36,820 bases of DNA from a virus. Positions 6,892-27,935 of this stretch are shown here, piece by piece. The first letter of the stretch is position 1. Each line of letters opens with the position of its first letter. The stretch is taken from IMG/VR virus record IMGVR_UViG_3300008624_000035, positions 1 to 36,820 of that record; one strand, given 5' to 3'. The translations under genes and the position numbers were made by a program. Below the pieces are notes generated by a model. That model was not told the origin of the DNA, made no database searches, and saw nothing but the letters and a program-made list of their open reading frames with translations.

Positions 6892-6928
6892 GCTCGCTAT
6901 TAATTAGTTGGCGCCAGTATATAAAAAC

Positions 6929-7726: not shown

Positions 7727-7742
7727 ACGATACTTTTACCTC

Positions 7743-9234: not shown

Positions 9235-9654
9235 CTACTTTAATGCCTGCCAAATTTTAGAGGAATTTCCTACTAAAGAGCTAATGTCCACTCCAGCGTC
9301 ACTGGGATCTCCTAAGTCTGCGCTTCCTTGTTCTGGAATGTGATTTGAGAGTGGGGCTGTATTCTCAAATAAGTCCACTCCCTGATACGCATCTTTTCCT
9401 ACAACTTCCATCATCTTTTTTCTATATTCTTTTAACTGAGCCCGTGACGCCACGTCTTGTTCGGTCGTCTGAATGCCGACTGATGGTGTTGGTCCCTGAT
9501 TCGAAGACTGCTGCACTTCCACAAGCGGGGTCGTCTGGAGCCCTTTCGCCACTTCGGAAACCACATTGGATAAAAGCCCTTCTTCAAGGAGGACTTCATG
9601 AATACACTCTTTGACAAGTGGCTTGATTAATTGTTTAAGGTCTGATTTTTTCAT
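9235..9654 (-). CDS. Tagged small protein of unknown function (139 residues)
   Basis: Starts MKKSDLKQLIKPLVKECIHE, a variant of the N-terminal module seen on six other proteins here (helix with Leu/Ile spacing, then acidic residues). The rest is polar and probably disordered (PLVEVQQSSNQGPTPSVG, ENTAPLSNHIPEQG). It overlaps the 356-residue gene by 4 bases (ATGA) and lies 4 bases ahead of bS21. Between the prohead protease and scaffold genes it is in the place for an internal head or core protein. The LLEEG stretch fits an [L/I]-x-E cut site for a gp21-type protease. Function inferred only. Confidence 0.6.
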   Translation of the reverse strand: MKKSDLKQLIKPLVKECIHEVLLEEGLLSNVVSEVAKGLQTTPLVEVQQSSNQGPTPSVGIQTTEQDVASRAQLKEYRKKMMEVVGKDAYQGVDLFENTAPLSNHIPEQGSADLGDPSDAGVDISSLVGNSSKIWQALK

Positions 9655-10721
9655 AATACTCTCGGGTTAATTCCTGCTAATTGGTGCCACCGTCTCATTT
9701 GAGATTCTTCCAATATATAAAGCTCTTTAAGTGACTCGCGTTTGCTCTCAATGTCGGCCGGGGTGCATTCTTTTTCGCCGCACCAAGCTTTTACTTCAGG
9801 TGTTTTTTCAGGATTCTCAATTTCCCAAGCGAGCCACTGGCGAAACGCTTCTGGGAGAAAGAGATCCGTCTCGGGCTTCAAGAAAAAGCTGTGAAATGAT
9901 CTATATAAAGGATCTTCACCGTCCGAATCCTGGCCGCGATCCTGTATAACATCCGCGTAATAACGATACCAGATTCGCTTCTGCCTCTCCGATGCATTCA
10001 TCCAGGCTTCGTCTGTTGGGTAATGAATAGAATCCAAAGGTGCGTCATCCAATCCAAGAAAATGAATCACAGTTAAAGTGTGGTCGTCGCTATTAAGAAG
10101 AGGTTCCGGTATATCTGTCTCTTCTGAACCAGGGCTCTCATCTGCGGAATCGTCTTCTACAAAAGTGTGTCCGATATCTGCCAGAGCGTTTATCAGAGCG
10201 TTTTTTTCTTCCTCCGTCCGGCGTGCGATCCAAGTGCGCGCCTCTGCTACATCTTTGGAACCCCCACTTTCAAGAGCCTTTTTTAGTGGAGGTGCGCTTT
10301 TTTTTGCCCAAACGACCATCTCTTCGTCTTCGACTGGTGCCGGAGTAGTGGTGGGCATGCGTGTGCTAAGTCGTGAGGGCTCATCTGGGATGGGGGGGAC
10401 CGGTTCACCCAAGGCAGTCGTCCCAGTACGCGATGTGGGTGTAGGATCTTTAGACTTGGCAATGTCCATTAATTCTTCTGTGCGGCTTTGTTGCTCTTCA
10501 GTGTTGCTTGCACGTCTAATATAGAGGTATGCTGCTTGACGCTGGTTTGCTGGATCCGGGTCGGTCGCAAATACTCCACGAAGTTCGGCATCCGACATGT
10601 CTTCCAGGCCGGGAGCGCTTTTTTTTCGCAAGCGTTGCAGAAAAGAACCTTCGTTTAAAAAGGTTCTCCAGGTTGCAACGCGTTGTTGCTGGTCACTATA
10701 ACTAGACCATTGCTCACTCAT
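9651..10721 (-). CDS. Unknown head-module protein with WRTFLNEG start region (356 residues)
   Basis: A hydrophilic, acidic protein. Residues about 15-26 contain ATWRTFLNEGSF, a W-x-x-F-L-x-E motif shared with the starts of two other proteins and close to a T4 prohead-protease site (L-N-E before G). A Pro/Thr-rich linker (about 95-130) precedes a helical part with EEMVVWAKKSAPPLKKALES. The second half has Trp- and Tyr-rich helices (EAWMNASERQKRIWYRYY). The C-terminus, MRRWHQLAGI, echoes the scaffold C-terminus RMKRLAGIK. It overlaps the protease gene by 8 bases. I recognise no enzyme domain. Best guess: prohead core or internal head protein. Confidence 0.6.
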   Translation of the reverse strand: MSEQWSSYSDQQQRVATWRTFLNEGSFLQRLRKKSAPGLEDMSDAELRGVFATDPDPANQRQAAYLYIRRASNTEEQQSRTEELMDIAKSKDPTPTSRTGTTALGEPVPPIPDEPSRLSTRMPTTTPAPVEDEEMVVWAKKSAPPLKKALESGGSKDVAEARTWIARRTEEEKNALINALADIGHTFVEDDSADESPGSEETDIPEPLLNSDDHTLTVIHFLGLDDAPLDSIHYPTDEAWMNASERQKRIWYRYYADVIQDRGQDSDGEDPLYRSFHSFFLKPETDLFLPEAFRQWLAWEIENPEKTPEVKAWCGEKECTPADIESKRESLKELYILEESQMRRWHQLAGINPRVL

Positions 10722-11367
10722 CCGTCAATACCTCGTTCAATAAGCGATTGATACGATCAGCTTTGGTAAAGACATTGGGAGTGCTTAAGTCTTTGGCCTC
10801 TTTCATCATATATGCTCCCGGTGTTGAGGGTTCCGATACAAAATCAAAACAGATAAGTTGGAAATCGTCTTCGACGATTGTTTGTCCTTGAGCCTCACTC
10901 ACCGATCCCATTCCTCGTGAAGAGATACCAAGCTGTGCGCCGCTATTTACAAGGCCGCGCAAGATATTGCCCGATGGGGTGTCCAGTACTTTTACTTTGC
11001 CCATCACATTTTTATTTTCCATCCATACATCAGTCACCATATGCGATGCATTCTTTAAATTGATGACAGAATCATCTGGATGATCAAGCTCTCCGAGAGC
11101 ACGATTTTCTTTTACGAGTTTTTTGTAAGTTTCAATTTCTCGCATTAATACACGGTAAGGGTAAATACGACCGTTGCCGTTTTGCACATCTGCTTCTTGG
11201 AGTTTGCCCGAAAGCATCATTCCTCCGCTAGCAACGAAGCGCTTCTCATCTTCCGTTAACAGATCTTGGCATACGCCGCCTTCGCAAAGCGCGTAATATT
11301 CTCTTAGTAATTTCTTTCCCATAGCTAAGAACCTTTGCAGCACCGTCTGACCGGCTGCAGCATCCAC
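10714..11367 (-). CDS. 21: Prohead core protease, T4 gp21-like
   Basis: Serine protease that matures T4-like proheads by cutting scaffold, capsid and internal proteins after [L/I]-x-E. Key motifs match T4 gp21: a strand with GGMMLSGKLQEADVQNGNGR (T4 has IEGIFMQAEVVNRNKR), GELDHP with the catalytic His at residue 96 (T4 GELNHP), VLDTPSG, and GISSRGMGS with the catalytic Ser at about 149-150 (T4 GVSSRGLGS). The longest form uses GTG at 11367. An ATG at 11322 (MGKKLLREYYALCEGG) also fits the family N-terminus and has an AAGG-type site, so it may be the true start. It belongs to the 17-20-21-22-23 block. Confidence 0.92.
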   Translation of the reverse strand: MDAAAGQTVLQRFLAMGKKLLREYYALCEGGVCQDLLTEDEKRFVASGGMMLSGKLQEADVQNGNGRIYPYRVLMREIETYKKLVKENRALGELDHPDDSVINLKNASHMVTDVWMENKNVMGKVKVLDTPSGNILRGLVNSGAQLGISSRGMGSVSEAQGQTIVEDDFQLICFDFVSEPSTPGAYMMKEAKDLSTPNVFTKADRINRLLNEVLTDE

Positions 11368-11370
11368 TTA

Positions 11371-11676
11371 TTATTCCATGCGTTTGTGTTCATGTTTTAT
11401 TCCTTCATCTCCGATAATCATATTAAGAATATAAGATGTCCCCGAAGAAAGACACCCTAAAATAAGATAATTTACCGGTGTTACATCAAAATTAAATAGT
11501 TCTGTGTAAGGAGAAAGTAGCATTAAAATCCACCCTACATGAAAACCAATGCACATGGGGCACCTGAACAGTTGTCCAAGCCATCCTCTCGTAGGACGAA
11601 GAGCATCAAAGACTTTTCCGTAGACTAAGATCTGGGTAAGACCATAAGATGCCAATATAAAGTATAATAATTCCAC
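11371..11676 (-). CDS. Small membrane protein, DUF1360-like
   Basis: A 101-residue protein with three hydrophobic segments (about 3-20, 42-57, 67-90). The segment at 37-47 reads LFRCPMCIGFH, a CxxC motif at a membrane border that resembles the DUF1360 family. It starts at GTG (11676), which is favoured by AGGAG six bases upstream and overlaps the preceding stop (TAGTG). It ends 3 bases before the protease start. A membrane protein in the head operon could anchor prohead assembly at the inner membrane, as T4 proheads assemble there, but that link is inference. Confidence 0.6.
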   Translation of the reverse strand: MELLYFILASYGLTQILVYGKVFDALRPTRGWLGQLFRCPMCIGFHVGWILMLLSPYTELFNFDVTPVNYLILGCLSSGTSYILNMIIGDEGIKHEHKRME

Positions 11677-12224
11677 TACTGCTCCTGATAAAGCTTGTAT
11701 TCTTCTTTGATGATCTCTCGAATATCGCTTTCTGTAAGTTCCTGTCGGACGCGACCTAATAAGGCTTGAACTCTCTGTATAATAGTTTCCAAATCCTGTT
11801 CTATCGAACCAACTTCTTTCTCAACGTTGGTTAATTTAACTTGATTTGACCGCATTACGTTTTGTACGTCTCGCCCCTTGTTTTGTTGAGGCTCTTCGGG
11901 TGTAGGGTCTGCGGGAGCATTGTCGGGATTATCACCAATATTAAAAGGAGATTTTTCTCGAATATTGTTTTCTAGTTCTTCATTAGCTTTTTTACACTTC
12001 TCTAAAGCGGTTGCAAATTCTGGGCTGGAGCGTTGCTCGGGCTCAAATTCTCTAACGTCGGCGCATGCCGCCATAGTTTTTTTCCTTTCTGCTTCTACAT
12101 ATTTTTGAAATTCTTCGGTCGACTCTTCGGAGTCAGGGGCATCTTCTTTTTCGTCGCCATAGAGAGGGCGCGCCTCTTCCTCTTCTTGGAGATACCGATT
12201 CCAATGTTCTAATAAGAGTTTCAT
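11676..12224 (-). CDS. Tagged coiled-coil head-module protein (182 residues)
   Basis: Begins MKLLLEHWNRYLQEEEEARP, nearly the same module as the ParB-like protein at 22803-23711 (MKLLMENWRKFVNETEE). The W-x-x-Y-L-x-E sits at residues 8-14 and suits cleavage by a gp21-type protease. The remainder is very acidic and helical; residues about 125-175 (KLTNVEKEVGSIEQDLETII) form a likely coiled coil. Position between portal and protease matches T4 gp67/gp68, small prohead core proteins, and acidic helical character agrees. Sequence similarity to those proteins is not evident to me, so the role is inferred. Confidence 0.6.
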   Translation of the reverse strand: MKLLLEHWNRYLQEEEEARPLYGDEKEDAPDSEESTEEFQKYVEAERKKTMAACADVREFEPEQRSSPEFATALEKCKKANEELENNIREKSPFNIGDNPDNAPADPTPEEPQQNKGRDVQNVMRSNQVKLTNVEKEVGSIEQDLETIIQRVQALLGRVRQELTESDIREIIKEEYKLYQEQ

Positions 12225-12764: not shown

Positions 12765-13581
12765 CTGAATAGATTTCCTTTACTAAGCTTTGAGTTTTTA
12801 GCACCGTTAAAAGCAATTCCTCGTTAACAGCGACTGTTGCAAACTTATCTAAGCGCTCGATCACTCGATGAGTTTTGGTAGACATTTCAGGATCGCTTTT
12901 AATTTCGTCAACGTCTTTAGCCTTGTTTAAACATTCTTTAAGTCGCCCAATTTCCTCATTAAGAAAAATCTTCAGTTCGAGCGCGTTGTCAGCAAAAGAT
13001 GAAATATAGTGTGTCAAGAGTTCTTTTTGTTCTTGCAAGAGGTCGTCGCCGTATTTATCATTAAACTTTTCTACAAATGTTTTAATAACCAAATTATCAA
13101 TATCGTTTTCTTCTGTCTCGACCGTACCTTCTCTACACATACTAGTAACAATCTCCTGCTCCAAGAGTACTTGATCGCGAGGCGATGTCTTGGTCGAAAA
13201 AATCTGAGATATCGATGCCAAAGTTTTATAGTTGGGCACAAAGGCATTGAAAACAGACGAGTCTAATTCTTTATTTATGTCATCTATAAGAGCGCTTTGC
13301 TCTTTAAACAATCCAGTGAAATCCAAAAGACGGCTAGCTAATTTTGCTTCCCGTAGAATCTTTTCTGACGTTTCTTTATCGAAGCCACAACTTTCATAAA
13401 GAGATCGATGGCATTCTAAATCTTGTCGCAAAAGACTTCCTGGTTTGAAGTGCTTCTTAATAAGGTCCACGATCTTATTACACTGTATCGTGTCTTTCTT
13501 TAAGATGGCCGCGGTTGCTTCGCGAATCAACGCCTCATAAACAAATGCGGTATTTCTTTTTTTGTTATGTCTACCCTTCAT
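12748..13581 (-). CDS. Helical head-module protein of unknown function (277 residues)
   Basis: Begins with a basic patch (MKGRHNKKRNTAFVYEALIRE) and is mostly helical throughout, with no low-complexity parts. It contains KIVDLIKKHFKPGSLLRQDLE, a region of paired helices around 95-150, and a long C-terminal helix pair. It overlaps the portal gene by 11 bases and the next gene by 17, so it is tightly coupled to the portal. Proteins with this start are, to my memory, frequent next to portal genes in uncultured aquatic myoviruses, but no function is established to my knowledge. A portal- or core-associated role is a guess from place. Confidence 0.62.
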   Translation of the reverse strand: MKGRHNKKRNTAFVYEALIREATAAILKKDTIQCNKIVDLIKKHFKPGSLLRQDLECHRSLYESCGFDKETSEKILREAKLASRLLDFTGLFKEQSALIDDINKELDSSVFNAFVPNYKTLASISQIFSTKTSPRDQVLLEQEIVTSMCREGTVETEENDIDNLVIKTFVEKFNDKYGDDLLQEQKELLTHYISSFADNALELKIFLNEEIGRLKECLNKAKDVDEIKSDPEMSTKTHRVIERLDKFATVAVNEELLLTVLKTQSLVKEIYSDGNNS

Positions 13582-15541
13582 TATTATTCTCCAATCCTTC
13601 TAATCCTTTAAGGAGCGCCCGTATCGAATCGCTTACGTGAAAAAGCTTTTCTTCTTCAGAAAGCTCACTTGCGTTATAAATAGGTGCTTGTCCTTCATAA
13701 ATACCATTTCCCAAGCTGCCCATCTTTGCGAGGGAACCGATCTCAGCGCCTGGGACAACATTCCGAATAGCCGAGCTAGCTTTTTCTCGATTGTACTTCG
13801 CGCCCATAGAGCGCGTCCGGGCTCCTGCTGGTCGGCCATCAACCTTCTTAGGATAATATACTTTTCCCTTTGCTCCAGGGGTCAGACGAGGCTCGTTACG
13901 AGAGCCGGGTGGGACGGCTAGGAGCGCTGAATCATCGCCACCTCCCTCATCACCGCCGGCTTCACCTGCGGGCATTTCCTCGCCTCCGCCAAGATCACCA
14001 CCAAGATCTCCTCCGAGATCGCCTCCGAGATCGCCTCCAAGGTCTCCCCCCAGATCGCCTCCCATTCCGCCGCCGGCGCCTTCGGCTGCAGCAGCTTCAG
14101 CGACTGCCTGAAGAGCGGCGTCGTGCTTACGATCATAATACATTTCGCGTTGATTGCGACCAAAGTCTTCATGATTCATACCAAAGATATGTTCGGACAC
14201 CCAGCGCCGTGAGAAATAACCTTCTGTGGCTGCAGCGGCAATGTCGAACTTCTGCTTCCAGGTCTCAATTTCTTGAAGTTCTGCAATCTTGGACGGGTTA
14301 TTGAGAGTTAAGCTGAAGCTTAATAAGTCGTCGCCTCTGAAGCCTAATGTGTACAGATGGATGATACCAATCTTTGTAAGCTCTGCGATAATAACTCTTT
14401 GGAGTCTCTGAATGGTTCTTGCAAAACGAATGTCTTTCTGCGCAAGAGTAGTCTTGTCTTCTTCGGCACCTTCTCCCATCGTTAGATAAGATTGAGGTAT
14501 CTTGAGTGCGGAAAAAAGCTTATCACGCAAATACTTGATATCATCAATATCGGTAGTGTTGGTGCCGCCGGCGAGGTTCTTGATCTCTGTGACCGAGCCA
14601 GCGCGAACTGGGATGAAATAATCTTCTTCGATAGACATTGGGTTGTATCGCAAATCCACACGTCCGTTTTCAGGATCAATAACTTGATGACGCTTAAGGT
14701 TGGTCACAATTTTTTCCATATACTGTTCGACTTCATTGGGAGGAATAGAACCGACATCAATCTTAAACACTCGGCGCTCAGAAGAACGGATAACACGATA
14801 TGCCATCATAGCATCTTCCATCAACACTAGCTGGCGCCAAATGCGTCGTGCTGGCTCCAAAATTGATGTTCCATACGGAATGTACTTATCATTTCCTAAG
14901 ATGCGGAAATGGGCAACTTGCCAGTTTTCAAAGGTCATCCCAGCAGAGTTCCACTGAAACTGCACATAATTCGGGTTGGTGGCATCTTTACCTTCTAGTC
15001 TTTCAACTTCTTGGGCCGGGAGCGGTAGAACAGATGTCACTCCATATTTGTCATCGATATCAACATACAGGAAAAAATCACCATATTTACACATCGTGCG
15101 GGCCCAACCAAAAAGATTGTATTTTAAGTTAAGGATGCTATCAAATAAGACATCCAGTACCGCACTAATTTCTTCATTAGGACATCGGACATTAAGCATC
15201 GGGCGCAGTTCAGAATATGTTGTCATCTCATCTGCATAGATGTCCATCGTAGATGCGATTTCAGGCATATATTCCATCTGATCAAAATCTACATAACGCT
15301 CTGAACGTCGTTGGTTTTGAATCGCATTTGTAGCAATAACATCTAAAGGATTATAAAGTGTCTTTTTAAACTGTTGCCCCGATGCCGATTTAAAGCGAGA
15401 GGAAAATTTATCTAAATGTTGACGCCGAATGCGACGTCCCGATTGAGAACGATAGTTAACAATGGGACCCGAGAAGAGACGCGTTAACGCTTTGAATAAG
15501 CTCGTTTCAGAGTTTGCTGGGTTTTTATCTTGAATTGCCAT
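13571..15541 (-). CDS. 20: Portal vertex protein, T4 gp20-like
   Basis: A 656-residue protein with the T4 gp20 layout. A basic N-terminal part (QSGRRIRRQHLDKFSSRFKS) leads into YVDFDQMEYMPEIASTMDIY, then the portal core with FGWARTMCKYGDFFLYVDID, PYGTSILEPARRIWRQLVLM and a stem/crown region with SYLTMGEGAEEDKTTLAQKD and RFARTIQRLQRVIIAELTKI. It forms the dodecameric ring through which DNA enters and at which the tail joins. The unusual part is a Gly/Asp-rich C-terminal extension with a GGDL repeat (about 493-518). Lies 8 bases after the terminase stop. Confidence 0.95.
   Translation of the reverse strand: MAIQDKNPANSETSLFKALTRLFSGPIVNYRSQSGRRIRRQHLDKFSSRFKSASGQQFKKTLYNPLDVIATNAIQNQRRSERYVDFDQMEYMPEIASTMDIYADEMTTYSELRPMLNVRCPNEEISAVLDVLFDSILNLKYNLFGWARTMCKYGDFFLYVDIDDKYGVTSVLPLPAQEVERLEGKDATNPNYVQFQWNSAGMTFENWQVAHFRILGNDKYIPYGTSILEPARRIWRQLVLMEDAMMAYRVIRSSERRVFKIDVGSIPPNEVEQYMEKIVTNLKRHQVIDPENGRVDLRYNPMSIEEDYFIPVRAGSVTEIKNLAGGTNTTDIDDIKYLRDKLFSALKIPQSYLTMGEGAEEDKTTLAQKDIRFARTIQRLQRVIIAELTKIGIIHLYTLGFRGDDLLSFSLTLNNPSKIAELQEIETWKQKFDIAAAATEGYFSRRWVSEHIFGMNHEDFGRNQREMYYDRKHDAALQAVAEAAAAEGAGGGMGGDLGGDLGGDLGGDLGGDLGGDLGGGEEMPAGEAGGDEGGGDDSALLAVPPGSRNEPRLTPGAKGKVYYPKKVDGRPAGARTRSMGAKYNREKASSAIRNVVPGAEIGSLAKMGSLGNGIYEGQAPIYNASELSEEEKLFHVSDSIRALLKGLEGLENNNEG
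13985..14062. repeat. Tandem 12-base repeat coding GGDL units in the portal
   Basis: Six or so imperfect 12-base units encode (GGDL)n near residues 493-518 of the portal protein. The unit sequence varies mostly at third codon positions, so the peptide is kept while the DNA drifts. Copy number may vary between related phages. Confidence 0.85.
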
Positions 15542-15549
15542 TTATAATC

Positions 15550-17136
15550 TCACTTAATAATCCATTTATATTGTTCATAAAGTTTTGCCGCCTCTGTCGT
15601 TTTTTTATCTAGGGCATTCTCTTGTTTGTACCCCTGTTGGCCCGAAATAGTCGTGTTCATCGTAGTGCGTGTCGTAATAATTGCATCTACGAACGCCTTC
15701 TGATAGTTTAAATCACGTGCATTAGTTTGAATAGCAGTGTCACGCACCCAACATGCAATTGCTAAAGCCATAATCAAATCATCATTATAACTCTTCATAG
15801 CTTGAGGCTTTCCATTTTTCCAAATAAAAGTTTTCATTTCATTAACCGTGCGGGATGAATACACTTTAATTAGTTTATTTCTTATAAACTCTTCTAATTT
15901 TGCAACTATTAAAGGTCGGGTCTTCTGTGTAGTAGAGAAGCCGGCAATCGTGTTAGTTTTATATTCAGCTTGATGTTGCTCAATATATTCATGCGTTGAC
16001 TTTATAGAATAATATATATTAGGATAACCGTATTCTACAAGTTTGTCAAGTACTGTATAGCCAATATTATTATTTTCTACTACCATCATCGCATTTCCAA
16101 ACTCTCGGCCGACTTGATTAAGCATGTTAGCAAATAAATCAGGAGTTAGTTTTCCTTGATATTCTCCGATGACTTCTAAGGTTTCTAATTTGACAATATG
16201 AAATGTAGAAAAATCGGCGCCATCGCCACGAGATACATCCACCACCATCAAATAATTACAGGTAGGATCAAATTCTTCCCAAATCCAAAAATTACGGTCA
16301 AATCCCGTGCGATGTTTGGGCTCTTTAACATTCGATAGCAGCCATTCCATACATTCGGGATCAATCACTGTTTCACCAGACGTGTTGAAATTACATTGTA
16401 ATTCTTGTGCAATCTGGCGCTTGGACATGTTTCTTGTTTCTTTAGTGTACCATTGTTCATCTCGATCTGGGTGGACATCCCACGGTAACGTCGTTAAATT
16501 AAAATTGTTTACTCCAGAATCTGCTTCGGTACAGGTCTTGTGAAACCAGTTTCCCACACCATTTGGGGTAGACAACGCAATACAACGCCCACCTGTGGAC
16601 AACGTCGGATATAGACCAGTCCATAATTCTTCTAAGCCTTCGATGTGGGCGGCCTCGTCGAGAACCAAAAGAGACAGTGCTTCGGAACGACCGGCATCGC
16701 CCGAAGTGGACGCGGCTTTAATAGAGGAACCATTGGACAACTCGAAAGATGTGCGGTTGTCAACGCTGATTGTTGCAATCTTTAGCCAGTCTGGTACATT
16801 GCGCATGATACCTTTAACCTTTTTGACGAGGTTGCCGGCGGTGGCGAACTTGGTTGCCATAACTAAAATGGCCTTATCGCGATGAAATAGCATCATCCAT
16901 ACGATATAGCCGGCTGTGATTGTAGAGATGCCAAGCTGACGTGCTTTAAGGATGACATTAAAGCGATAATCATTAAAGTCATTTAGGAGCGCATCTTGAA
17001 AATCATATGTATCAAATAAAATCAACCCATGCATTGGGTGAGAGATACGAGCATAGTTTGTGAGAAAGTAAGCTGGGTCTTTACCGCATTTCAGAATCTC
17101 GTTGACTTGCTGTTTCTTGTCTAATTGAAAACTCAT
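15550..17136 (-). CDS. 17: Terminase large subunit, T4 gp17-like
   Basis: A 528-residue packaging motor. The N-terminal ATPase has a Walker A of the terminase type at 64-72 (KARQLGIST), Walker B LLVLDE at 156-161 with the catalytic Glu at 161, and coupling motif ALSTPNG at 187-193. The C-terminal RNase H-fold nuclease carries metal-binding acids in YLMVVDVSRGDGADFSTFHI, MMVVENNN and YNDDLIMALAIA. It pumps DNA into the head through the portal encoded next. The ATG overlaps the preceding stop (ATGA). Size is a little below T4 gp17 (610). Confidence 0.96.
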   Translation of the reverse strand: MSFQLDKKQQVNEILKCGKDPAYFLTNYARISHPMHGLILFDTYDFQDALLNDFNDYRFNVILKARQLGISTITAGYIVWMMLFHRDKAILVMATKFATAGNLVKKVKGIMRNVPDWLKIATISVDNRTSFELSNGSSIKAASTSGDAGRSEALSLLVLDEAAHIEGLEELWTGLYPTLSTGGRCIALSTPNGVGNWFHKTCTEADSGVNNFNLTTLPWDVHPDRDEQWYTKETRNMSKRQIAQELQCNFNTSGETVIDPECMEWLLSNVKEPKHRTGFDRNFWIWEEFDPTCNYLMVVDVSRGDGADFSTFHIVKLETLEVIGEYQGKLTPDLFANMLNQVGREFGNAMMVVENNNIGYTVLDKLVEYGYPNIYYSIKSTHEYIEQHQAEYKTNTIAGFSTTQKTRPLIVAKLEEFIRNKLIKVYSSRTVNEMKTFIWKNGKPQAMKSYNDDLIMALAIACWVRDTAIQTNARDLNYQKAFVDAIITTRTTMNTTISGQQGYKQENALDKKTTEAAKLYEQYKWIIK

Positions 17137-17477
17137 TCATCATCTACGATTTCTATTTCTTCTTCGGCTTCGATATCATCATCGCTTACATCCGCAGTTA
17201 GATCAACATTAAGGCCTGCGGCCGTCATTACATCATGTAAGTCTGCGAGAACGCGGTTGGCTTTTCCTTCGAGATCTTCTCCATCATGTTCATAATCCAG
17301 TTCTCCGGGGTGCGTATGAGACTCGTCTCCCTTGTGCCCGGTATAATCTTCTTCTCCGGGTCGGGTGCGAGACTTTTCGTCCTTGCCCATACCCCAATCT
17401 TTATCGTGACCTTCAGTGGTTGCTCCCGCAACTTCTTCCATAATAATCTCTTTGAGTCGTGCAATCGAAATTTTCAT
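17133..17477 (-). CDS. Tagged acidic protein of unknown function (114 residues)
   Basis: Starts MKISIARLKEIIMEEVAG, a member of the shared N-terminal module group; IME or MEE followed by VAG would suit a gp21-type protease. The remainder is very acidic, with two similar stretches (EKSRTRPGEEDYTGHKGDES and SHTHPGELDYEHDGED) that look like an internal repeat with RPGE/HPGELDY units, and it ends in DDDIEAEEEIEIVDDE. It overlaps both neighbours by 4 bases. A position just before the large terminase could suggest a small terminase, but no DNA-binding motif is visible. More likely an internal head protein or an acidic core protein. Confidence 0.6.
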   Translation of the reverse strand: MKISIARLKEIIMEEVAGATTEGHDKDWGMGKDEKSRTRPGEEDYTGHKGDESHTHPGELDYEHDGEDLEGKANRVLADLHDVMTAAGLNVDLTADVSDDDIEAEEEIEIVDDE

Positions 17478-19587: not shown

Positions 19588-19588
19588 T

Positions 19589-20593
19589 TTATTTTCCTCT
19601 ATTTTGTGCTTTTATGCTTTTTACGCATTTCTCATATTTTTCTTTATCTTCTCTGCCGACAGAACTAGTGCATATGGCCCAAGGATTATTCTTTTCCTCT
19701 TCTTCCAAATAAGCTTCGAGTTCTTCTCTAATATACTGCTGTAGGTTTTCACTATATGTAGGCCGGTCATAGCCCTGCTCTTGGGCCCACTCGGCTGCCG
19801 GCGCCAATTGGCCGAGCATGTCTTCTAATTCACCTCCTAAAGATAGGAGTCGTTGTTCATCTGCATAAGGATCTTCGGCAGTTTTCAACATTGTTCGCAA
19901 TAAAGCTAGTAGCTCAGCATTAGGGCGTTTTCCTACGTTTTCAAAAAACTTAAATCTTTTTCGTTTCTTCGGGGGTTCTTCCATCGCCTGCGTGGGGGCG
20001 CCCATGGCATTGTGGTATAGTTGCCACGCCACTGCATCTATAGCTTGCTGATCAACATTTACATGAAACGAAGCCAAAAGTTCAATGGCCTTACTTCGAT
20101 ATTCACGAGGAGGCCGTTGTTGCGCTGGCTCAGAAGGCTCTTCAGGCCATTTTCCGGTGGCCCCTAAAACTGTATCGGACCTTAAAGCGTCAGGATCTTC
20201 CTCGGGCTCTTCAAAGTCCTCGGGCTCTTGTTGGTCCAATGTTTTATTAGGGTTTAGTTCCGACAATTCTTCCGCTTCAGAGACTTGTTCCGGAGGGGAT
20301 GGAACAGGAGAGAAGCGTCCGCCGCCGCGGCCGGCCACCTTCTGTGCGATCCCCAAAGAATATGGATCATGACCAGTTATCGCTGAAGTGAGGTAATCGA
20401 TACTCATATCGATACCCTCCAAATTGTCAATCACAGATGAGAGCAGCGCCTCAATTTTAGCAGTCGACATTCCCTCAGTTCGCTCTGTTAAAACTTGTGA
20501 AAGGTGGATGCGCAAATATGTCTCTAGAAGGACATTTTTCATTTCCTTCTCCACAGTTTCCATCAGTTTCTTTTTTGTAATCTTTATTGACAT
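19589..20593 (-). CDS. Tagged unknown protein (334 residues)
   Basis: Begins MSIKITKKKLMETVEKEMKN, an extended variant of the shared N-terminal module, followed by VLLETYLR. A helical region with TERTEGMSTAKIEALLSSVI precedes a Pro/Glu-rich linker (about 90-160, EQVSEAEELSELNPNKTLDQ) and a second helical domain (about 165-260) that includes AIELLASFHVNVDQQAIDAV and a basic KKRKRFKFFENVGKR patch. The C-terminal part is helical, with EENLQQYIREELEAYLEEEE-like acidic helix. No enzyme motif seen. The tag suggests import into the prohead. GAGGTTC ten bases upstream supports the ATG. Confidence 0.58.
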   Translation of the reverse strand: MSIKITKKKLMETVEKEMKNVLLETYLRIHLSQVLTERTEGMSTAKIEALLSSVIDNLEGIDMSIDYLTSAITGHDPYSLGIAQKVAGRGGGRFSPVPSPPEQVSEAEELSELNPNKTLDQQEPEDFEEPEEDPDALRSDTVLGATGKWPEEPSEPAQQRPPREYRSKAIELLASFHVNVDQQAIDAVAWQLYHNAMGAPTQAMEEPPKKRKRFKFFENVGKRPNAELLALLRTMLKTAEDPYADEQRLLSLGGELEDMLGQLAPAAEWAQEQGYDRPTYSENLQQYIREELEAYLEEEEKNNPWAICTSSVGREDKEKYEKCVKSIKAQNRGK

Positions 20594-20781: not shown

Positions 20782-20912
20782 TGCAATCCTGCCCAGGTTA
20801 ATACTATAACTAGTCCGATGATTGTTCCAAACGCTACACCCGAGCCGATAATGTCGGTCCACTTAATGCCGCGCCAGTCGAGCCAGTGATTTAGTTTATT
20901 CCAAAGCTTCAT
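20778..20912 (-). CDS. Very small membrane protein (44 residues)
   Basis: A short gene: ATG at 20912, TGA at 20780-20778. It starts MKLWNKLNHWLDWRGIKWTD, with four of the first 18 residues Trp, then one hydrophobic segment IGSGVAFGTIIGLVIVLTWA. It is joined on both sides: TGATG with the preceding stop and ATGA with the next start. This tight coupling, the coherent membrane helix and lack of other coding use of the interval support a real gene. Function unknown; part of the run of small membrane proteins before the lysis cassette. Confidence 0.6.
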   Translation of the reverse strand: MKLWNKLNHWLDWRGIKWTDIIGSGVAFGTIIGLVIVLTWAGLQ

Positions 20913-21148
20913 CAATAGTCACCGCTTATAAGATCTTGCGCAGCCGCGGCAGCCGGGATTCCCTGGTACCATAAATCATACAGATTAACGTCGGTGGCCA
21001 ATTCGTCTGCCGATACATATTCGTCAGACAAGCTTTCAATATGTCCATTTACTTCCATCACCCATTCTGCAAACTCTCGAAGTCCACGATTCATATTCGT
21101 AATCTCCTCTTTGATGATCTGCATCAATTGGGACTTGGTTACTTTCAT
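20912..21148 (-). CDS. Tagged small protein of unknown function (78 residues)
   Basis: Starts MKVTKSQLMQIIKEEITNMN, one of the clearest examples of the shared N-terminal module. The following upstream paralogue at 21150-21494 has the same first 14 residues with a single change. The remaining 55 residues are acidic and different from all other members (FAEWVMEVNGHIESLSDEYV, ATDVNLYDLWYQGIPAAAAA). It ends on a TGATG junction. Tag plus unrelated cargo is consistent with a packaged head protein. Function unknown. Confidence 0.62.
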   Translation of the reverse strand: MKVTKSQLMQIIKEEITNMNRGLREFAEWVMEVNGHIESLSDEYVSADELATDVNLYDLWYQGIPAAAAAQDLISGDY

Positions 21149-21149
21149 C

Positions 21150-21494
21150 TTATTCTCCGACTTGTGTTACCAGCGGCTCATCGCCTGCTAAATCAGCAGC
21201 TAGTCTCAAAAAGTCCCCCATCGACATTTCTGCCAGGGCTGGTGCCTGCTCAGAAGCTACATTCTGGCGTACAAATTCTACAACGTCTTGCGCAAACTCT
21301 CGCGCAATTCCCACATCCATGTCTGCAATGGCTTGTGCTTCCGTATCTTTTTGAGAGGGATCTGGCTCACCAAACGTGCGGCGCCAATTGGCGTCGTAGC
21401 CGGCGTGGCGACCCCCTTGCCGATACGGCATTTCGTTTAAGCTAGATGTTTCTTCTTTAATAATCTGCATCAATTGGGATTTGGTGATTTTCAT
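21150..21494 (-). CDS. Tagged small protein of unknown function (114 residues)
   Basis: Begins MKITKSQLMQIIKEETSSLN. The DNA of this 5' end is also close to that of the downstream gene, so the tag may have spread by local duplication. The body is acidic-helical: DTEAQAIADMDVGIAREFAQ and DVVEFVRQNVASEQAPALAE, ending LAGDEPLVTQVGE. The ATG directly follows the stop of the 53-residue gene. GGAGGAG precedes it. No enzyme domain seen. Confidence 0.62.
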   Translation of the reverse strand: MKITKSQLMQIIKEETSSLNEMPYRQGGRHAGYDANWRRTFGEPDPSQKDTEAQAIADMDVGIAREFAQDVVEFVRQNVASEQAPALAEMSMGDFLRLAADLAGDEPLVTQVGE

Positions 21495-21656
21495 TTATAC
21501 TCCTCCCCACATGTGCCAGCCAGCGGCAAGTCCGATAGCCAAACACGTTACTTTCGTAACGGCGAGCAGGACATAATCTTCTAATGCGCCGTTAAGCAAA
21601 ACAAGCTGCTTCGTTCTTGCCCATGTATCTCGCGCTAAATCTCGTGGTGTACTCAT
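21495..21656 (-). CDS. Very small membrane protein (53 residues)
   Basis: ATG at 21656, TAA at 21497-21495. It begins MSTPRDLARDTWARTKQLVL and has one moderately hydrophobic segment (YVLLAVTKVTCLAIGLAAGW) near the C-terminus. It fills the gap between the tubulin-like gene (3 bases away) and the next tagged gene (stop and start adjoin as TAAATG). Such snug packing supports a real gene. Function unknown. Confidence 0.57.
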   Translation of the reverse strand: MSTPRDLARDTWARTKQLVLLNGALEDYVLLAVTKVTCLAIGLAAGWHMWGGV

Positions 21657-21659
21657 TTA

Positions 21660-22787: not shown

Positions 22788-22802
22788 TATAATCTCCGTT
22801 TA

Positions 22803-23711
22803 TTATTCTGCGGCTTTTTTCTCTGGGCGGTTCCCATATGCGTCGGCCGGCTTGGGGCTATCAAAGTTAACCTTGCCTGTGCCAAGCGCTTGATTAACCG
22901 CATCCTGTGAAACGCCAGAGTCGCCGGCTTGAGGCATACTTTTCTCGCGAGAGAACCGGCCGGCAGACTTCTTAATGACCGGCAGATTACCAGCAATATA
23001 TTGGGCAGCGAGGCGTTTATCTGGTTTTTCAATCTTCTCAGCCTGAACTAAAAGCTGCAAGACTTCATCAGTAACATTTTTAAGAACAAAGTTCGCTACT
23101 TGTTGCTCGTTTGCTTGCATTAAATTTTCACCCTCAAATGGCTTTGTCACTACTTTGTCAGCAGTCGCAGCGATGGCGAATTGCATAACCTTAAGAGCCT
23201 CTTCTTCATTGTCGATAGCGGGTCCAGTTAAATTGTCGACCTTAACAGTACCACCTGGATTGACCATCATAATTTGTGACCACCGGTGATGCCCGTCTAA
23301 AATATATTTTCCATTGTATACTAAAATTGGAACTGGACCTGACTTCGAAGCCATAACAATTGGAGATCCGTTTAGTCCAAGAGCAGTTTTAGTGGCGTCG
23401 TATTTATTAGCTACCTGATCAGCCAGACTATTTCCAAATCCAATTTCTGCTTGGGTCGCTGTGAGATCTTGTGCAGCTATAGCGCCCGGCTGCACCTTAG
23501 CCACCTCATCGGCCGGCTGGCCATCGGCTTGGCCTGCGCCGGCGATCTTATCAAATTCTGGATCATTCGCATATTTCTTAAGTACCGCGACGTAAGTTGC
23601 CAAGGGAGTGCCTGGATTATTTAACGCATAAAGCGCGCCCTTATCCAGTTCGTGAAGATTTTCTTCAGTTTCATTGACAAATTTTCGCCAATTTTCCATT
23701 AATAATTTCAT
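22803..23711 (-). CDS. ParB/Srx-fold protein with capsid-targeting-like start
   Basis: I choose ATG at 23711 (MKLLMENWRKFVNETEENLH, 302 residues), which overlaps the Mre11-Rad50 stop by TAATG; a longer TTG form from 23771 would lie inside that gene. The core at about 125-160 has GPVPILVYNGKYILDGHHRW, where the LDGHHRW matches the ParB/sulfiredoxin-fold nucleotide-binding motif (D-G-x-H/R-R). The first 15 residues are almost the same tag as in the gene at 11676-12224. The C-terminal half is helical with a basic, disordered tail. It may act on DNA or nucleotides and may be packaged. Activity is inferred. Confidence 0.7.
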   Translation of the reverse strand: MKLLMENWRKFVNETEENLHELDKGALYALNNPGTPLATYVAVLKKYANDPEFDKIAGAGQADGQPADEVAKVQPGAIAAQDLTATQAEIGFGNSLADQVANKYDATKTALGLNGSPIVMASKSGPVPILVYNGKYILDGHHRWSQIMMVNPGGTVKVDNLTGPAIDNEEEALKVMQFAIAATADKVVTKPFEGENLMQANEQQVANFVLKNVTDEVLQLLVQAEKIEKPDKRLAAQYIAGNLPVIKKSAGRFSREKSMPQAGDSGVSQDAVNQALGTGKVNFDSPKPADAYGNRPEKKAAE

Positions 23712-26700
23712 TATTGGTTTACCTTTGCGTAGCCTTTTTTCTTTTCTATTACAATCTGCATGTCGACGCAATCTTTGAGAGAGTCTAAATGCGAGATCAA
23801 GAGAACGTTCTTAAAATATACCTTAATTAGTTCCAAGATCCTAATAAAACCCTCCATATTTTCTTCGTCCAATGCGGTGCCCGGCTCATCGAGGATAAAC
23901 AAGTCCGACTTTGGAAGTGAAGAAACACTTAAAAGAGCCAAACGAATTGCCATCGCGGCCATTGTCTTTTCTGCACCTGACGCCATTTCAATGGGCCGTT
24001 CGTCGTGCTTAGGATGCTTAATAAAGATGTCAAGCTTGTTTCCGCTGGTCTCAAAAAACACTTCGAACTCAACAATGTTGGCGAGAACTTTTGCAATCTC
24101 CTGGTTAATGACTGGAATCTTTTTCTTGATAATATCGTAAGCGATTCCGTTAGGGTGCATGCATTGCATAAGCAAATCGTATGCCGCATAACTATTCTGA
24201 AGGTCTTGATACTCCTTACTTTGAGCCTTGAGAGATTCAATCTTCTCTTCATAGGAACCCACCTGTCGTACAATCTCTAATGTCTCGTTATCACAGATTT
24301 CAATCTTTTCTTTTTTAGTCTCGATCTTAGTTTGGTAACCTTGTCGTTCTTTGATGACTTTTTCAAGTCCATCAATAACCTTTTTGTTTTGCTTATATTC
24401 AGCGACCTTGGTGGTGAGAGTGATCAATTCTTGATCAGTTGTGGCCTTTGTGTTCTTATTACGTTCGCATTCTAATTGCAGCGCGGCAACTTCCGCCTTT
24501 AGTTCTACAATCAGTTCTTGCGTTAAACGATACTCTTCAAGCTTTTCGGCTGTGTCGTCAGGAGACAACGTTTCTAAACGCATAGCGGCCGCGTGAAGGT
24601 CTGCTTCAATTCCTGGCTTGTTAGCTACGTCAATATAGGCATCTTTGATAAATCGACACGAAGGATAAGAATCGCCGCAGGGGATACTCTTCAAAAGCTT
24701 TTCCTTTTTGCCAATCTTTTCAATCTCTTCTCGAAGATTCATAATACTATGATCTAAAGTATCAATTTCTGCTTTGTCGGCTGTGAGGGTGGCATGATCG
24801 ATAAGCTCTAATAAGCTCTCTGATATTGCCACTTTCTGCTGCTTGACAAGTGCCAGTGCTGTTTGGCTTGTTATCTTCTCCTCCAACAACTTCGACAACA
24901 CTTGCTTATCTTTTTGCTCTGTCATGACTTTTGTGATGTCAATAAGCTTGCCAGGAATAGAATTGATCTTCTCGTCTAAGCGTCTCGCTCCTTCGTTCAG
25001 AAGTTTAAGTTCTTTACGATAATCCTCGCAAGTTGTGCGATTAGTTTCCGCTTGTACAGTCAAGTCTTCCAAGCTGGTTTCTAATGCCTGCACCTCAGTG
25101 TTGTAATCCCGATCCTCATACTTGCGCAGGAGAGCCTTGGCCTCAACAGAGTCGTCTTTGGCCATCTTAAACTTTTGGTCAAACAGCTCCAAATCGAGGA
25201 ACTTGGCGATGATTTCCTTTCGACGTGTCGAACCCTCATCAATGAATCCCAATGCACCGTGCTGGCTTGCCAGAGAAGACACCATAAAATCATCCATGGA
25301 CCCGAAGTGCTTTCGAATATTTGCGTCCGTCTGATTGCGTGTGGTGCCGTTTAAGGATGTTGTCTCGTCTGTGACAGGGTCATAGACTTCGAAGTTCAAA
25401 TCTGTTTTGGCTTCTAAGGTCTCAACACCTTTCAAGCGTTTCGTATATTTTTCAGAGGTGCGCTTAATGTTGTAGACTTTGTGTCCGATCTCGATCTCTA
25501 AAACGCCTTCGCAAGATTCTTGATGTTGATTAATAACGTTGAGGTTTTTGCGCTCGTTCTTTGAGGTGGTGTTGAACAATGTATACAGGGCCGCATCAAT
25601 GATGCTAGATTTGCCGCTGAAGTTCTTTCCAAAAACGCCAATGATGCCGTTAAGGTTTTCAAAGTCGATGGAGTTATCCTTTCCGTAATTAAACAGATTG
25701 TCCCATTTAAACGACTTGATTCTCCAGTTTACGTTTCTAGAGATCTCTTCTCGGTCCTCGATAATCTTGTTGTACTTGCTGTTAAGCTCAAACACGCGCT
25801 CTAGGGTTGTGGCATCGGTCTGGTAATCTGAAAGGAACTCGTCAATCAGTTCTTCTTGGACTTTAATGTCTCGCAGGTTTTCTGTCTTAATACCGTCAGT
25901 TAGATCTTCTACATTACCGCGCTCGCCTGCTGCTCTGTTGAGAAACGAGATGCTCTCGGGCTTAAAGCGATGCTTCGCAATGTCCATTGCTCGGCGCATC
26001 GTGTTAAGCGGAAGGTTATTGTTACTAACCAATCGCAGGCGTGCGCCAGTGGGTACTTGGAGATTGCGAGGCATCCGCCCCTTGAGTGTGAGCGGGATTG
26101 TAAAGAACGGCTTAGGGTTTTTAAACACAATCGGCTCAATGTCCCATTCGTCTTTAGATTTGATATCCCAAATGAGAATACCTTTGTCGTTGGTCTCGCC
26201 ATGGTTCTGCTGAACAGTTGAGCCAGCATACCAAACGCGTCCATCGTGATCTAGGAATTGGCGACGGTGAATATCACCAAGCATAGAAAAATCAAAATCG
26301 TCAAAGATAGATATATCATCTTCACCAAAACTCATCGTCCAATTGGTATCAGTTTTACAATTAGAGATTGAGCCATGATAAAGTGCAATATTGATCTTGT
26401 CAGTATTGGTGGGCTTCATCCAGTTGTCTCGATCAAAAACAGACAAGACATTCAAACAGAAATCGTCGTTCAAATGAGTCTCGCCTGAATCTTTAAGCAA
26501 GTGCAGTGTCGGCAGATTGAGCGCGTCGACAATCGGTGTCAGTGCGTCTTGACGACTGCTGTTCTTTAGGTTGCCGTCATGGTTTCCTAGAATGATATAG
26601 GTTGGTGCAATCTCAGCGAGACTGCGAAAAAAATCAGAACACATCTCAACAAACTCTGGTGAGATCTGGGTCTTGGTGTGGGCTATATCCCCACAGTGTA

Positions 26701-26818
26701 TAATGTAATCGACTTTTTGTTCCCGCAGCGTTTCATACAACTGCTCAAAAATGACTCGATATTCATAATGATACTTCAGATTTTTGATATGAGTATCACT
26801 TATATGTGCAAACTTCAC
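23711..26818 (-). CDS. Fused Mre11-Rad50 (SbcD-SbcC, gp47-gp46) recombination nuclease
   Basis: One 1035-residue chain. Residues 1-340 are an Mre11/SbcD phosphoesterase with metal motifs SDTH (D8, H10), CGDIAH (D44), GNHD (78-81), YHGS (H148) and GDIHRRQ (H184). Residues 365 to the end are Rad50/SbcC: Walker A GKNFSGKSS (397-405), a coiled coil, a CGDSYPSC hook-like pair (C714, C721), a second coiled coil, signature SGAEK (947-951), Walker B FILDEP (974-979) and H-loop SHLD. In T4 these are separate genes 47 and 46, needed for recombination-dependent replication and host DNA breakdown. GTG start at 26818 with GGAGGG; a sigma-70 promoter is just upstream. Confidence 0.95.
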   Translation of the reverse strand: MKFAHISDTHIKNLKYHYEYRVIFEQLYETLREQKVDYIIHCGDIAHTKTQISPEFVEMCSDFFRSLAEIAPTYIILGNHDGNLKNSSRQDALTPIVDALNLPTLHLLKDSGETHLNDDFCLNVLSVFDRDNWMKPTNTDKINIALYHGSISNCKTDTNWTMSFGEDDISIFDDFDFSMLGDIHRRQFLDHDGRVWYAGSTVQQNHGETNDKGILIWDIKSKDEWDIEPIVFKNPKPFFTIPLTLKGRMPRNLQVPTGARLRLVSNNNLPLNTMRRAMDIAKHRFKPESISFLNRAAGERGNVEDLTDGIKTENLRDIKVQEELIDEFLSDYQTDATTLERVFELNSKYNKIIEDREEISRNVNWRIKSFKWDNLFNYGKDNSIDFENLNGIIGVFGKNFSGKSSIIDAALYTLFNTTSKNERKNLNVINQHQESCEGVLEIEIGHKVYNIKRTSEKYTKRLKGVETLEAKTDLNFEVYDPVTDETTSLNGTTRNQTDANIRKHFGSMDDFMVSSLASQHGALGFIDEGSTRRKEIIAKFLDLELFDQKFKMAKDDSVEAKALLRKYEDRDYNTEVQALETSLEDLTVQAETNRTTCEDYRKELKLLNEGARRLDEKINSIPGKLIDITKVMTEQKDKQVLSKLLEEKITSQTALALVKQQKVAISESLLELIDHATLTADKAEIDTLDHSIMNLREEIEKIGKKEKLLKSIPCGDSYPSCRFIKDAYIDVANKPGIEADLHAAAMRLETLSPDDTAEKLEEYRLTQELIVELKAEVAALQLECERNKNTKATTDQELITLTTKVAEYKQNKKVIDGLEKVIKERQGYQTKIETKKEKIEICDNETLEIVRQVGSYEEKIESLKAQSKEYQDLQNSYAAYDLLMQCMHPNGIAYDIIKKKIPVINQEIAKVLANIVEFEVFFETSGNKLDIFIKHPKHDERPIEMASGAEKTMAAMAIRLALLSVSSLPKSDLFILDEPGTALDEENMEGFIRILELIKVYFKNVLLISHLDSLKDCVDMQIVIEKKKGYAKVNQ

Positions 26819-26843
26819 GTACCCTCCGCATAGATACTCTTAT

Positions 26844-26872
26844 AGTATAACTCATTGTCAAGCAAGAGTCAA
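26844..26872 (-). promoter_or_regulatory. Sigma-70 promoter for the Mre11-Rad50 gene
   Basis: On the minus strand TTGACT (26872-26867) and TATACT (26849-26844) are 17 bases apart, the ideal spacing. Transcription would begin near 26837, giving a short leader with GGAGGG before the GTG at 26818. It suggests early expression by unmodified host polymerase of the recombination, ParB-like and tubulin-like genes. Confidence 0.8.
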
Positions 26873-26876
26873 GCTT

Positions 26877-27254
26877 TTATTTTTTGCGGTCTTTCGCCAT
26901 CTTCCGGAACGTCTTTGCTAAGTTGTATCGTTTCGTTCCAGGCTTGCATGTGGGACCACCAAATTTATCCCCAGTGCAGACACCCTCGGTGCCGCGCTTT
27001 TTAATATCTTTCTCTGCGTCTTGAATCCACTCGTCATCCTCTTCTTCGGCCAACGGAGCTTCCAGCGCTTTCTCATAAGGATCGACTTCGGGATCGACGT
27101 ATTCTTCGTCTTCATCGCGCTTGCCGTGTCCGGTTCCACCGAGTTGGGCAGCGCGCAGGCTCATGCCGGCGCCTTTGCCAGCGCCAAGCTCGTCTAAAGC
27201 GATTGTAAGCTCTTCAAGGATGATCTCTTGAAGTTGTGCTTTGGTTACTTTCAT
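26877..27254 (-). CDS. Nested tagged protein, possible separate product (125 residues)
   Basis: Internal ATG at 27254 in frame with the longer ORF. An ideal Shine-Dalgarno AGGAGA (27266-27261) lies six bases before it. The product starts MKVTKAQLQEIILEELTIAL, then DELGAGKGAGMSLRAAQLGG, an acidic mid part (EDEEYVDPEVDPYEKALEAP) and a Cys/Lys-rich end (GVCTGDKFGGPTCKPGTKRY). The tag at its own start makes independent translation likely. The CxnC ending may bind metal or form a disulfide. Confidence 0.55.
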   Translation of the reverse strand: MKVTKAQLQEIILEELTIALDELGAGKGAGMSLRAAQLGGTGHGKRDEDEEYVDPEVDPYEKALEAPLAEEEDDEWIQDAEKDIKKRGTEGVCTGDKFGGPTCKPGTKRYNLAKTFRKMAKDRKK

Positions 27255-27935
27255 TGGGATTCTCCTATCGAGTGATTCTCCATAGCCCATGTTTCCTGAG
27301 CCTGCAAAGCCGGGGTTAACGCGGTGGGACGACGATCCTGACCGCTTGCGCAGTCGAGTACGTTCTGCATCGGACATACTCAGGTACTCCTGCGCCGAAC
27401 GGGCTTCTTCTGCGTCTCTCCTATTTCGCGCTCTTGCTTTTTCTTCTTCTTCTTCTCGTTGTTCCCTCTCATACCTTTCTTCCCGGGCGGCCTTTTCTCT
27501 TGCCGCAGCATCAGCTTTCTGATCGGCTATTTCTTGGGCTAGTCCGCCCAACTCTTTGGACAACCGATCTGCGTTTTGATCAAAACGGTTCATAAGACTC
27601 TGTGCTTTATGTTTAGGGTGACGGTCATACAGAAGGCGCCTCAGTTGTTGAAACAATTGTCCTAGAAGACCAGCTTCTATCCTGTCGCTCAGCAGGACAA
27701 AGCCTTCCCCTTCCTCCTTGGGTGCTACCAACCGGCTCGCGTACCTTAAGAATTGTTCTTCCTCTTCCGCGCTTAGGTCATTTGCCATATCGCCAATGGC
27801 GTCCAACTGCTTCCTACGGATTGCATATTCTTTCTCGGGAAGTTTCCCGCCAATAAAAGGGATATAAAGTTCTTGGAGTTCTTGTCCCAGTTCTTCATTA
27901 ATAATCTGCTTTAGTTTTGATTTGGTTACTTTCAT
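26877..27935 (-). CDS. Long ORF joining two tagged proteins in frame (352 residues)
   Basis: The ORF starts MKVTKSKLKQIINEELGQEL (tag) and has a helical domain with DLSAEEEEQFLRYASRLVAP, a highly charged helix (EKAAREERYEREQREEEEEK, about 150-175) and a short polar stretch. Then at residue 228 a second full tag, MKVTKAQLQEIILEEL, begins in the same frame. It is preceded by its own ribosome site. No stop separates the two halves. Either this is a true fusion, or one base is missing or added near the join: in another frame a TAG stop lies in the TCGATAGGAG sequence right before the second start. No known domain in either half. Confidence 0.6.
   Translation of the reverse strand: MKVTKSKLKQIINEELGQELQELYIPFIGGKLPEKEYAIRRKQLDAIGDMANDLSAEEEEQFLRYASRLVAPKEEGEGFVLLSDRIEAGLLGQLFQQLRRLLYDRHPKHKAQSLMNRFDQNADRLSKELGGLAQEIADQKADAAAREKAAREERYEREQREEEEEKARARNRRDAEEARSAQEYLSMSDAERTRLRKRSGSSSHRVNPGFAGSGNMGYGESLDRRIPMKVTKAQLQEIILEELTIALDELGAGKGAGMSLRAAQLGGTGHGKRDEDEEYVDPEVDPYEKALEAPLAEEEDDEWIQDAEKDIKKRGTEGVCTGDKFGGPTCKPGTKRYNLAKTFRKMAKDRKK

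Follow-up and report, generated by a model that had tools for sequence, protein, structure and literature searches.

Tagged genes at the locus

We analysed a viral DNA stretch of 36,820 nucleotides (IMG/VR record IMGVR_UViG_3300008624_000035, positions 1 to 36,820; hereafter the window), in which several proteins with different bodies begin with a similar short N-terminal leader, or tag. The window is the reverse complement of part of a 203-kb record, G001, with 99.99% identity. A sequence-only reading had listed seven starts with one pattern, and had proposed that it directs proteins into the phage head in the manner of the capsid-targeting sequence (CTS) of phage T4. All seven starts exist and are on the minus strand, as are all window genes given below.

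For this leader, termed T1, a profile was built from 552 tagged proteins, after removal of those listed loci that belong to the window's phage or to its nearest relatives, and was applied to each of the 1,978 16-mers in the window that begin with a start codon and contain no stop. Of the seven starts, five stand out with scores of 25.9 to 41.8; in the rest of the window no 16-mer exceeds 3.5, and among 200,000 random 16-mers the maximum is 6.1. The top score of the 1,978, 41.8, belongs to a protein of 114 amino acids (aa) at 21150..21494, MKITKSQLMQIIKEE. It is followed by a 78-aa protein at 20912..21148, MKVTKSQLMQIIKEE (41.4), which has a relative with MKVTASRLKQIIKEE in locus L138, and by a 352-aa protein at 26877..27935, MKVTKSKLKQIINEE (39.0), whose C-terminal domain is shared by further T1-tagged proteins (L093, L488). 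The 352-aa protein has a second tag inside, beginning at 27254, MKVTKAQLQEIILEE (33.8), nested in the same frame as had been claimed. AGGAG lies upstream of this inner start, the downstream part has 125 aa (26877..27254), and the C-terminal part of its product is a separate 75-aa tagged gene in L488. The fifth is an acidic protein of 114 aa at 17133..17477, MKISIARLKEIIMEE (25.9), just upstream of the terminase gene. Its relatives in the same place are 90-95% identical in the first 20 residues and keep the short C-terminal end IEIVDDE, with middles that vary in length and sequence. Since tag and C-terminal end are kept while the middle changes, this is ordinary divergence of one gene, not a clean exchange.

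The sixth start, 20593 (19589..20593, 334 aa), actually reads MSIKITKKKLMETVEKE. Unaltered, it has a profile score of -17.5; shifting the start two residues inward and replacing the residue there by M raises this to 8.3. Proteins with related bodies begin MSMKITKAKLLELIQEE (L138), MRVTRAKLKHLIKEE (L136) and MKITKAKLKQIIKEE (L068), and T1-tagged proteins in L065, L158 and L200 finish with the same C-terminal domain. The protein at 20593 is a degenerate, worn member of the T1 family. The seventh start, 9654, scores -41 and was dropped. It belongs to an untagged neighbour of gp21, MKKSDLKQLIKPLVKECIHEVLLEEGLLSNVV (9235..9654), a single conserved protein aligned full length across gp21 loci. This protein has 76 tblastn matches below 98% identity in the fetched loci, and all 14 matches listed span the full 139 residues. 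Pfam and PHROG gave it no name, and tblastn against cultured phages found no match.

The list of tagged starts was also incomplete. A second tag, T2 (MKLL-ENWRKFLNE), had been missed and begins the proteins at 12224 and 23711. The first is a 182-aa protein, MKLLLEHWNRYLQE (11676..12224), between gp20 and gp21. The second is a 302-aa cargo protein with a DGHHRW core, MKLLMENWRKFVNE (22803..23711). Pfam and PHROG scans of the tagged proteins of the window gave no convincing match. We also observed a T1-like sequence, SDIREIIKEE, a few residues from the C-terminal end of the 11676-12224 protein, and proteins with tag-like sequences at both ends in L031 and L163.

Among the head genes, the gp21-type prohead protease reported by the sequence-only reading is confirmed at 10714..11367 (PF03420, E 3e-30; phrog_207, head maturation protease, E 5e-54). 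A gp20-type portal (13571..15541; PF07230, E 2e-76) and a gp17-type terminase large subunit (15550..17136; PF03237, E 9e-9) lie further along.

Tag families found by blind clustering

In nine long contigs, all candidate protein starts of each contig were compared pairwise and pairs with BLAST-homologous bodies were dropped. Wherever present, T1 (4 to 26 genes) and T2 (5 to 9) ranked in the top three clusters by size. Both were recovered in G001, G009, G028, G019 and G002, and T1 alone in G029. Only T2 was found in G024, an incomplete piece of the G001 phage or of one almost identical to it. The 289-kb jumbo relative G007 has T1 and a third tag, T3 (14 genes), and G006 has no cluster of three starts. 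The consensus sequences are MKITKxxLxxIIKE for T1, MK[LK]LLxEWRKFLxE or MKLLLENWRKFLNE for T2, and MKxLRxYIRxxLxE for T3. Tagged genes number 6 to 35 per long contig, and 887 distinct tagged open reading frames (ORFs) were gathered from the fetched loci.

As a positive control, the top cluster in T4 consists of MKTYQEFIAE-type starts, the capsid-targeting sequence of that phage. In Flavobacterium phage immuto, the first cultured phage among the gp21 matches listed (43.6% identity), the first cluster is signal-peptide-like and the second is formed by four to five genes with MKKSQLRQIIKEALD-type starts. Cr30, HTVC008M and P-SSM2 (first 240 of 252 kb) had no cluster reaching three starts, and Mel-JY01 gave one cluster of three, MNTEEIDFKFN, which is not tag-like.

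Small proteins starting MK[VIP]GDLV also cluster in G007 (L391-L405; up to 19 genes), G019 and G002. We took these for a family of small paralogues and did not count them as a tag.

Register and peptide-level conservation

The three tags have one register, with [LIVM]-x-E at residues 12-14 in T1, T2 and T3 alike. This agrees with the earlier remark that [L/I]-x-E falls at the right place in the leaders. E14 is present in 132/139 T1 starts (defined by residues 1-12 only, scan-pattern matches excluded), in 88% of 40 T2 starts (loci not selected by T2) and in 5/6 T3 starts chosen likewise.

We also made a motif-free count on ORFs as called, comparing [LIVM]-x-E ending at residue 14 with the per-position mean of residues 21-39; G003, G017 and G024 were excluded. 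The counts are 13 vs 6.3 in G001, 16 vs 3.5 in G009, 20 vs 4.1 in G028, 8 vs 3.7 in G029, 16 vs 5.2 in G019, 18 vs 5.2 in G002 and 29 vs 9.4 in G007. There is no excess in G006 (3 vs 3.1), nor in T4, immuto, Mel-JY01, Cr30 or HTVC008M. P-SSM2 has 9 vs 5.7.

The information content of T1 is 3.3 bits at residue 14, partly by construction since the set was defined with E or Q there, and declines to 2.4 at residue 15, 1.4 at residue 16 and 0.3 at residue 17. The pattern is found at ORF starts 343 times, vs 14 internal matches in the same loci.

A conserved start may also be a signal in the nucleic acid, such as a translation enhancer or a recombination site. Some codons are indeed favoured in the tag over the bodies, such as ACA for threonine at residue 4 and GAA for E14. 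However, third codon positions vary at every conserved tag residue tested, and selection therefore acts on the peptide. In addition, T1, T2 and T3 differ in sequence yet have a common peptide register. Because synonymous sites vary, we reject a DNA-level signal, to which we would give next to no chance.

T1-like tags also occur inside ORFs, with 22 distinct cases in the fetched loci, the window's 27254 tag among them; 11 of the 22 are behind an N-terminal tag. A start codon is present in 16/22, and 11 of those 16 have a Shine-Dalgarno-like site. These tags could be internal starts, or mark polyproteins cut by gp21.

The T1 pattern gives at least 120 matches in viral contigs, and the same codons in permuted order give 0. 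In 84,980 prokaryote genomes it was found in 11 stretches from seven genomes, two of these with gp21. The records L561, L562, L565 and L571 have two or more neighbouring tagged genes that resemble the phage ones, and single tags are present in L567, a WOR-3 chromosome record, and L569. The lone tag of L567 is adjoined by genes like those of the MK[VIP]GDLV small proteins. The tag contigs are presumably mostly marine, judging by project numbers.

Exchange of tags between homologous bodies

Bodies were compared from residue 17 onward by filtered BLAST (E <=1e-8, 60% coverage of both). Different tag classes occur within 17 of the 96 body families that have two or more members. In the strongest pair, a T2 and a T3 leader precede bodies with 60% identity (E 2e-109). 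Homologues of the window's 22803..23711 cargo have T1-like leaders in G002 and G007, and in Microcystis phage Mel-JY01 the 10-residue MGILKQLLKE.

Further leaders are seen in cultured phages. In one family the body resumes at SSLSR after MQFKQYILGE in Mel-JY01 and after MQDILHEWRIFLAE in G009. A third Mel-JY01 protein has MIKLKSLLQE, and the 5'-nucleotidase of immuto begins MKKVMGNLADLLLE. The 10-residue leaders have L-x-E at residues 8-10, as in the T4 sequence. The consensus tag peptide, a short query, gave no tblastn match in cultured phages. Two tagged cargo proteins had only distant homologues there, all below 60% identity.

These exchanges bear on common descent, in which the tagged proteins would be one paralogue family with bodies diverged past recognition. 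Tagged genes do stand in tandem, with 22 adjacent pairs vs 2.9 expected in G007 and 15 vs 1.95 in G028. Several tagged bodies have small C-terminal domains in common, and the relatives of the 17477 protein keep their C-terminal end as well as the tag. Against this, the bodies fall in different Pfam families, and homologous bodies bear different tags in different phages. On account of this exchange we reject common descent as very improbable.

Cargo

Pfam was run on representatives with E14 and at least 60 aa. For the 134 non-redundant T2/T3 proteins, it assigned 23 families and no phage structural family. These include NUDIX, ADP-ribosyltransferase, S-adenosylmethionine lyase, P-loop kinases, GNAT, protein kinase, zeta toxin, guanylate kinase, RNase T, HAD, HD and ParB. 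For T1, the longest 130 of 398 proteins gave 16 families, including zeta toxin, P-loop kinase, poly(A) polymerase, pentapeptide repeats, a sigma-70 region, a TseH-like domain and GNAT, with FliD_C and EIF_2_alpha as weak odd matches. Most tagged representatives scanned have no Pfam match. By comparison, 134 untagged proteins of 100-400 aa gave 66 families, and the 25 listed include the protease, exonucleases and sugar enzymes. The median length is 114 aa for T1 representatives and 192 aa for T2/T3.

Association with gp21 and the head genes

Among 29 tag-selected contigs of at least 98 kb, 23 have a gp21 match and 22 a gp23 match (L125, which was gp21-selected, is not counted). The sequence-only reading had asked whether the motif is common in phages without a gp21-type protease. 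Six of the 29 lack a gp21 match. Five of these (G003, G017, G024, G028, G029) are syntenic fragments in which the stretch from gp21 to gp23 is missing, and the sixth, G006, is a single-tag contig. In contigs of 15-98 kb, gp21 is present in 28/47 tag contigs vs 0/41 random contigs (p 1e-10). The random contigs were drawn with a random 14-mer, 41 being of at least 15 kb among 80 listed of at least 120.

The position of the tagged genes also points to the head. A tagged ORF ends at most 1.8 kb upstream of gp21 in 49/75 loci (38/61 distinct gp21), vs 120/1,157 control windows from the same loci; of 80 gp21 loci, 5 were too short and 75 were used. The T4 gp23 maturation site LTE65 aligns with LRE or LKE in 5/5 tagged genomes examined, with other L-x-E sites nearby.

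An alternative is that the leader is a docking or localisation helix, never cut, for a target outside the head such as host RNA polymerase, the phage replication compartment or a membrane. This would agree with the many T1-tagged proteins that are small and acidic, and packaging is itself something we infer here. On the other hand, three different leaders agree in their register, with the gp21 cleavage motif at the end, tagged genes lie just upstream of gp21 in the loci counted above, and the same analysis recovers the proven CTS of T4. The cargo also overlaps classes predicted to be head-packaged in the accessible part of PMC5512222. We consider such a docking helix unlikely.

Neighbouring genes

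A scaffold-like protein at 527..1705, with the C-terminal RMKRLAGI, is by gene order a probable gp22. It is placed beyond gp21 on the gp23 side, with gp23 at 134-136 kb in G001. It has no Pfam match above the cut-off and no PHROG match. A C-terminal module, [RK][WMF]..[LMI][AS]G[ILMV], is present on this protein, on the 9651-10721 product and on scaffold-like and other proteins. In the fetched ORFs it is found 48 times near the extreme C-terminus vs 6 times elsewhere, and may possibly be a capsid- or scaffold-binding tail. One protein, at 104008-105084 of G007, combines it with a T1-like N-terminal tag. An unsupervised search for common C-termini gave one module in G007 and little elsewhere.

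A Tubulin/FtsZ-family GTPase (21660-22787; PF00091, E 2e-8) adjoins the tagged genes and has 33 tblastn matches below 98% identity in the fetched loci. A single ORF of 1,035 aa (23711-26818) combines metallophosphatase and SMC-type domains, putatively gp47-like and gp46-like. Finally, consecutive fibre-like ORFs at 1806-8513 have common stretches such as ASAFYGDGSNLTG, which suggests shuffled modules.

Interpretation and proposed mechanism

We conclude that these leaders very probably serve capsid targeting as in T4 and are cleaved by the gp21 homologue, with several tag families in parallel and the 6-35 tagged genes per long contig given above. The proposal of the sequence-only reading agrees with the tests run: the register, the collapse of conservation after residue 16, tag exchange, effector-like cargo, gp21 association, a retained [LIV]-x-E at the maturation site of the major capsid protein and the tagged genes just upstream of gp21 all fit it, as far as sequence comparison goes.

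By analogy with T4, the 14-residue N-terminal leader would probably form an amphipathic helix that binds the prohead core or scaffold, and this binding would draw the tagged protein into the prohead. The gp21 homologue would then cut after [LIVM]12-x-E14 and free the mature protein inside the head, to be ejected into the host along with the DNA. The T1 and T2 leader families would work side by side in this phage group, with T3 in jumbo relatives.

Several results weigh against this capsid-targeting reading. Among 20 proteins of cultured phages homologous to tagged bodies, 4 show a clear leader of a different type that closes with [LI]-x-E at the junction; in the other 16 no such leader was seen, and at least one of them, immuto 106221, starts right at the body. 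The motif-free excess at residue 14 is weakly significant in G001 (p 0.013) and G029 (p 0.035). The residue after the predicted cleavage site (P1') is mostly E in T1, unlike in capsid-protein sites. G006 has one tag and terminase and portal homologues, with no gp21 match. The gp21 association could be explained by lineage alone, since a single phage group may simply have both tags and gp21, and the control contigs were not lineage-matched. Contigs selected by T2/T3 have gp21 in 11/37, that is 11/13 at or above 119 kb and 0/24 at 36-97 kb. The smaller contigs may hold cargo clusters far from the head genes; all T2 genes in G009 and seven of nine in G001 lie ~75-110 kb from gp21. The [LIV]-x-E of gp23 says little by itself because gp23 leaders hold other L-x-E sites.

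The charge of the cargo also counts here. The mature parts of 398 non-redundant T1 proteins are 41% strongly acidic and 1% strongly basic, and T4-type internal proteins with CTS-like sequences are described as basic in the accessible text of PMC9026906. Judged by composition, acidic mature parts would fit DNA-mimic counter-defence proteins. An AlphaFold model of the window's T2 cargo, from a three-row alignment, had a mean pLDDT (predicted local distance difference test) of 31.6 and was not used. In the literature searched, neither a virion proteome nor a cleavage assay turned up for any tagged phage, nor did a paper on the immuto virion.

More tentatively, and with the odds somewhat against it, one phage may use several capsid address codes. 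T1 and T2, with T3 in jumbo relatives, would bind different core or scaffold proteins and sort the cargo, T1 taking small, often acidic proteins and T2/T3 larger enzymes. Some genes would be tandem tag-cargo-tag-cargo polyproteins, cut by gp21 into separate injected effectors. If so, the head of an uncultured phage would be a programmable multi-protein delivery device.

If the capsid-targeting reading is true, the tags are a readout, from sequence alone, of the proteins packed and injected by largely uncultured phages. Many tagged proteins may be early-infection effectors or counter-defence proteins hidden from homology. The capsid-targeting principle, which in T4 serves a few internal proteins, would extend to a large and modular set of cargo, and new short leaders would become available for putting proteins into phage heads.

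Comparison with known systems

The sequence-only reading knew of no named description of the motif. Likewise, we found none of these leaders described in the literature, mainly open-access, and none of six T1-like and six T2-like peptide strings in literature text.

In T4, the internal proteins IPI, IPII, IPIII and Alt bear the capsid-targeting sequence (PMC9026906), and the ADP-ribosyltransferase Alt is packaged and injected (PMC9026906, PMC5512222), according to the accessible parts of these papers. The system described here has the same features as in PMC9026906, as far as its available text goes: a 10-19-residue N-terminal leader on otherwise unrelated proteins, ending in [L/I]-x-E, a gp21-type protease in the genome, and an ADP-ribosyltransferase in the cargo. 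It is unlike the T4 system in sequence and in length, with a 14-residue leader vs 10 in T4 IPIII in the same text. Here two leader families can be present in one genome, a long contig has 6 to 35 tagged genes, the cargo of T1 is often acidic, and tags are also present inside ORFs. Compared with T4 MKTYQEFIAE at the level of the residue pattern, T2 ends [FY]-[LIV]-x-E like the T4 F-I-A-E; T1 and T3 are unlike it.

A second comparison is with head proteins of the giant phage SPN3US, which have propeptides removed by a gp21-like protease, with a targeting role proposed by the authors (PMC7411985, PMC10052503, in the parts available). SPN3US differs in that cleavage is after A-x-E, and two propeptides have 20 and 24 residues and others 111-254. 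The available parts of these papers describe no short tag common to many unrelated proteins.

Lastly, the effector domains overlap with those of polyvalent proteins, as the accessible part of PMC5512222 describes them, in ADP-ribosyltransferase, GNAT, NUDIX and ParB-like domains. Polyvalent proteins are multidomain in that account, with 2 to 15 domains, whereas here the cargo consists mostly of short proteins with a common leader.

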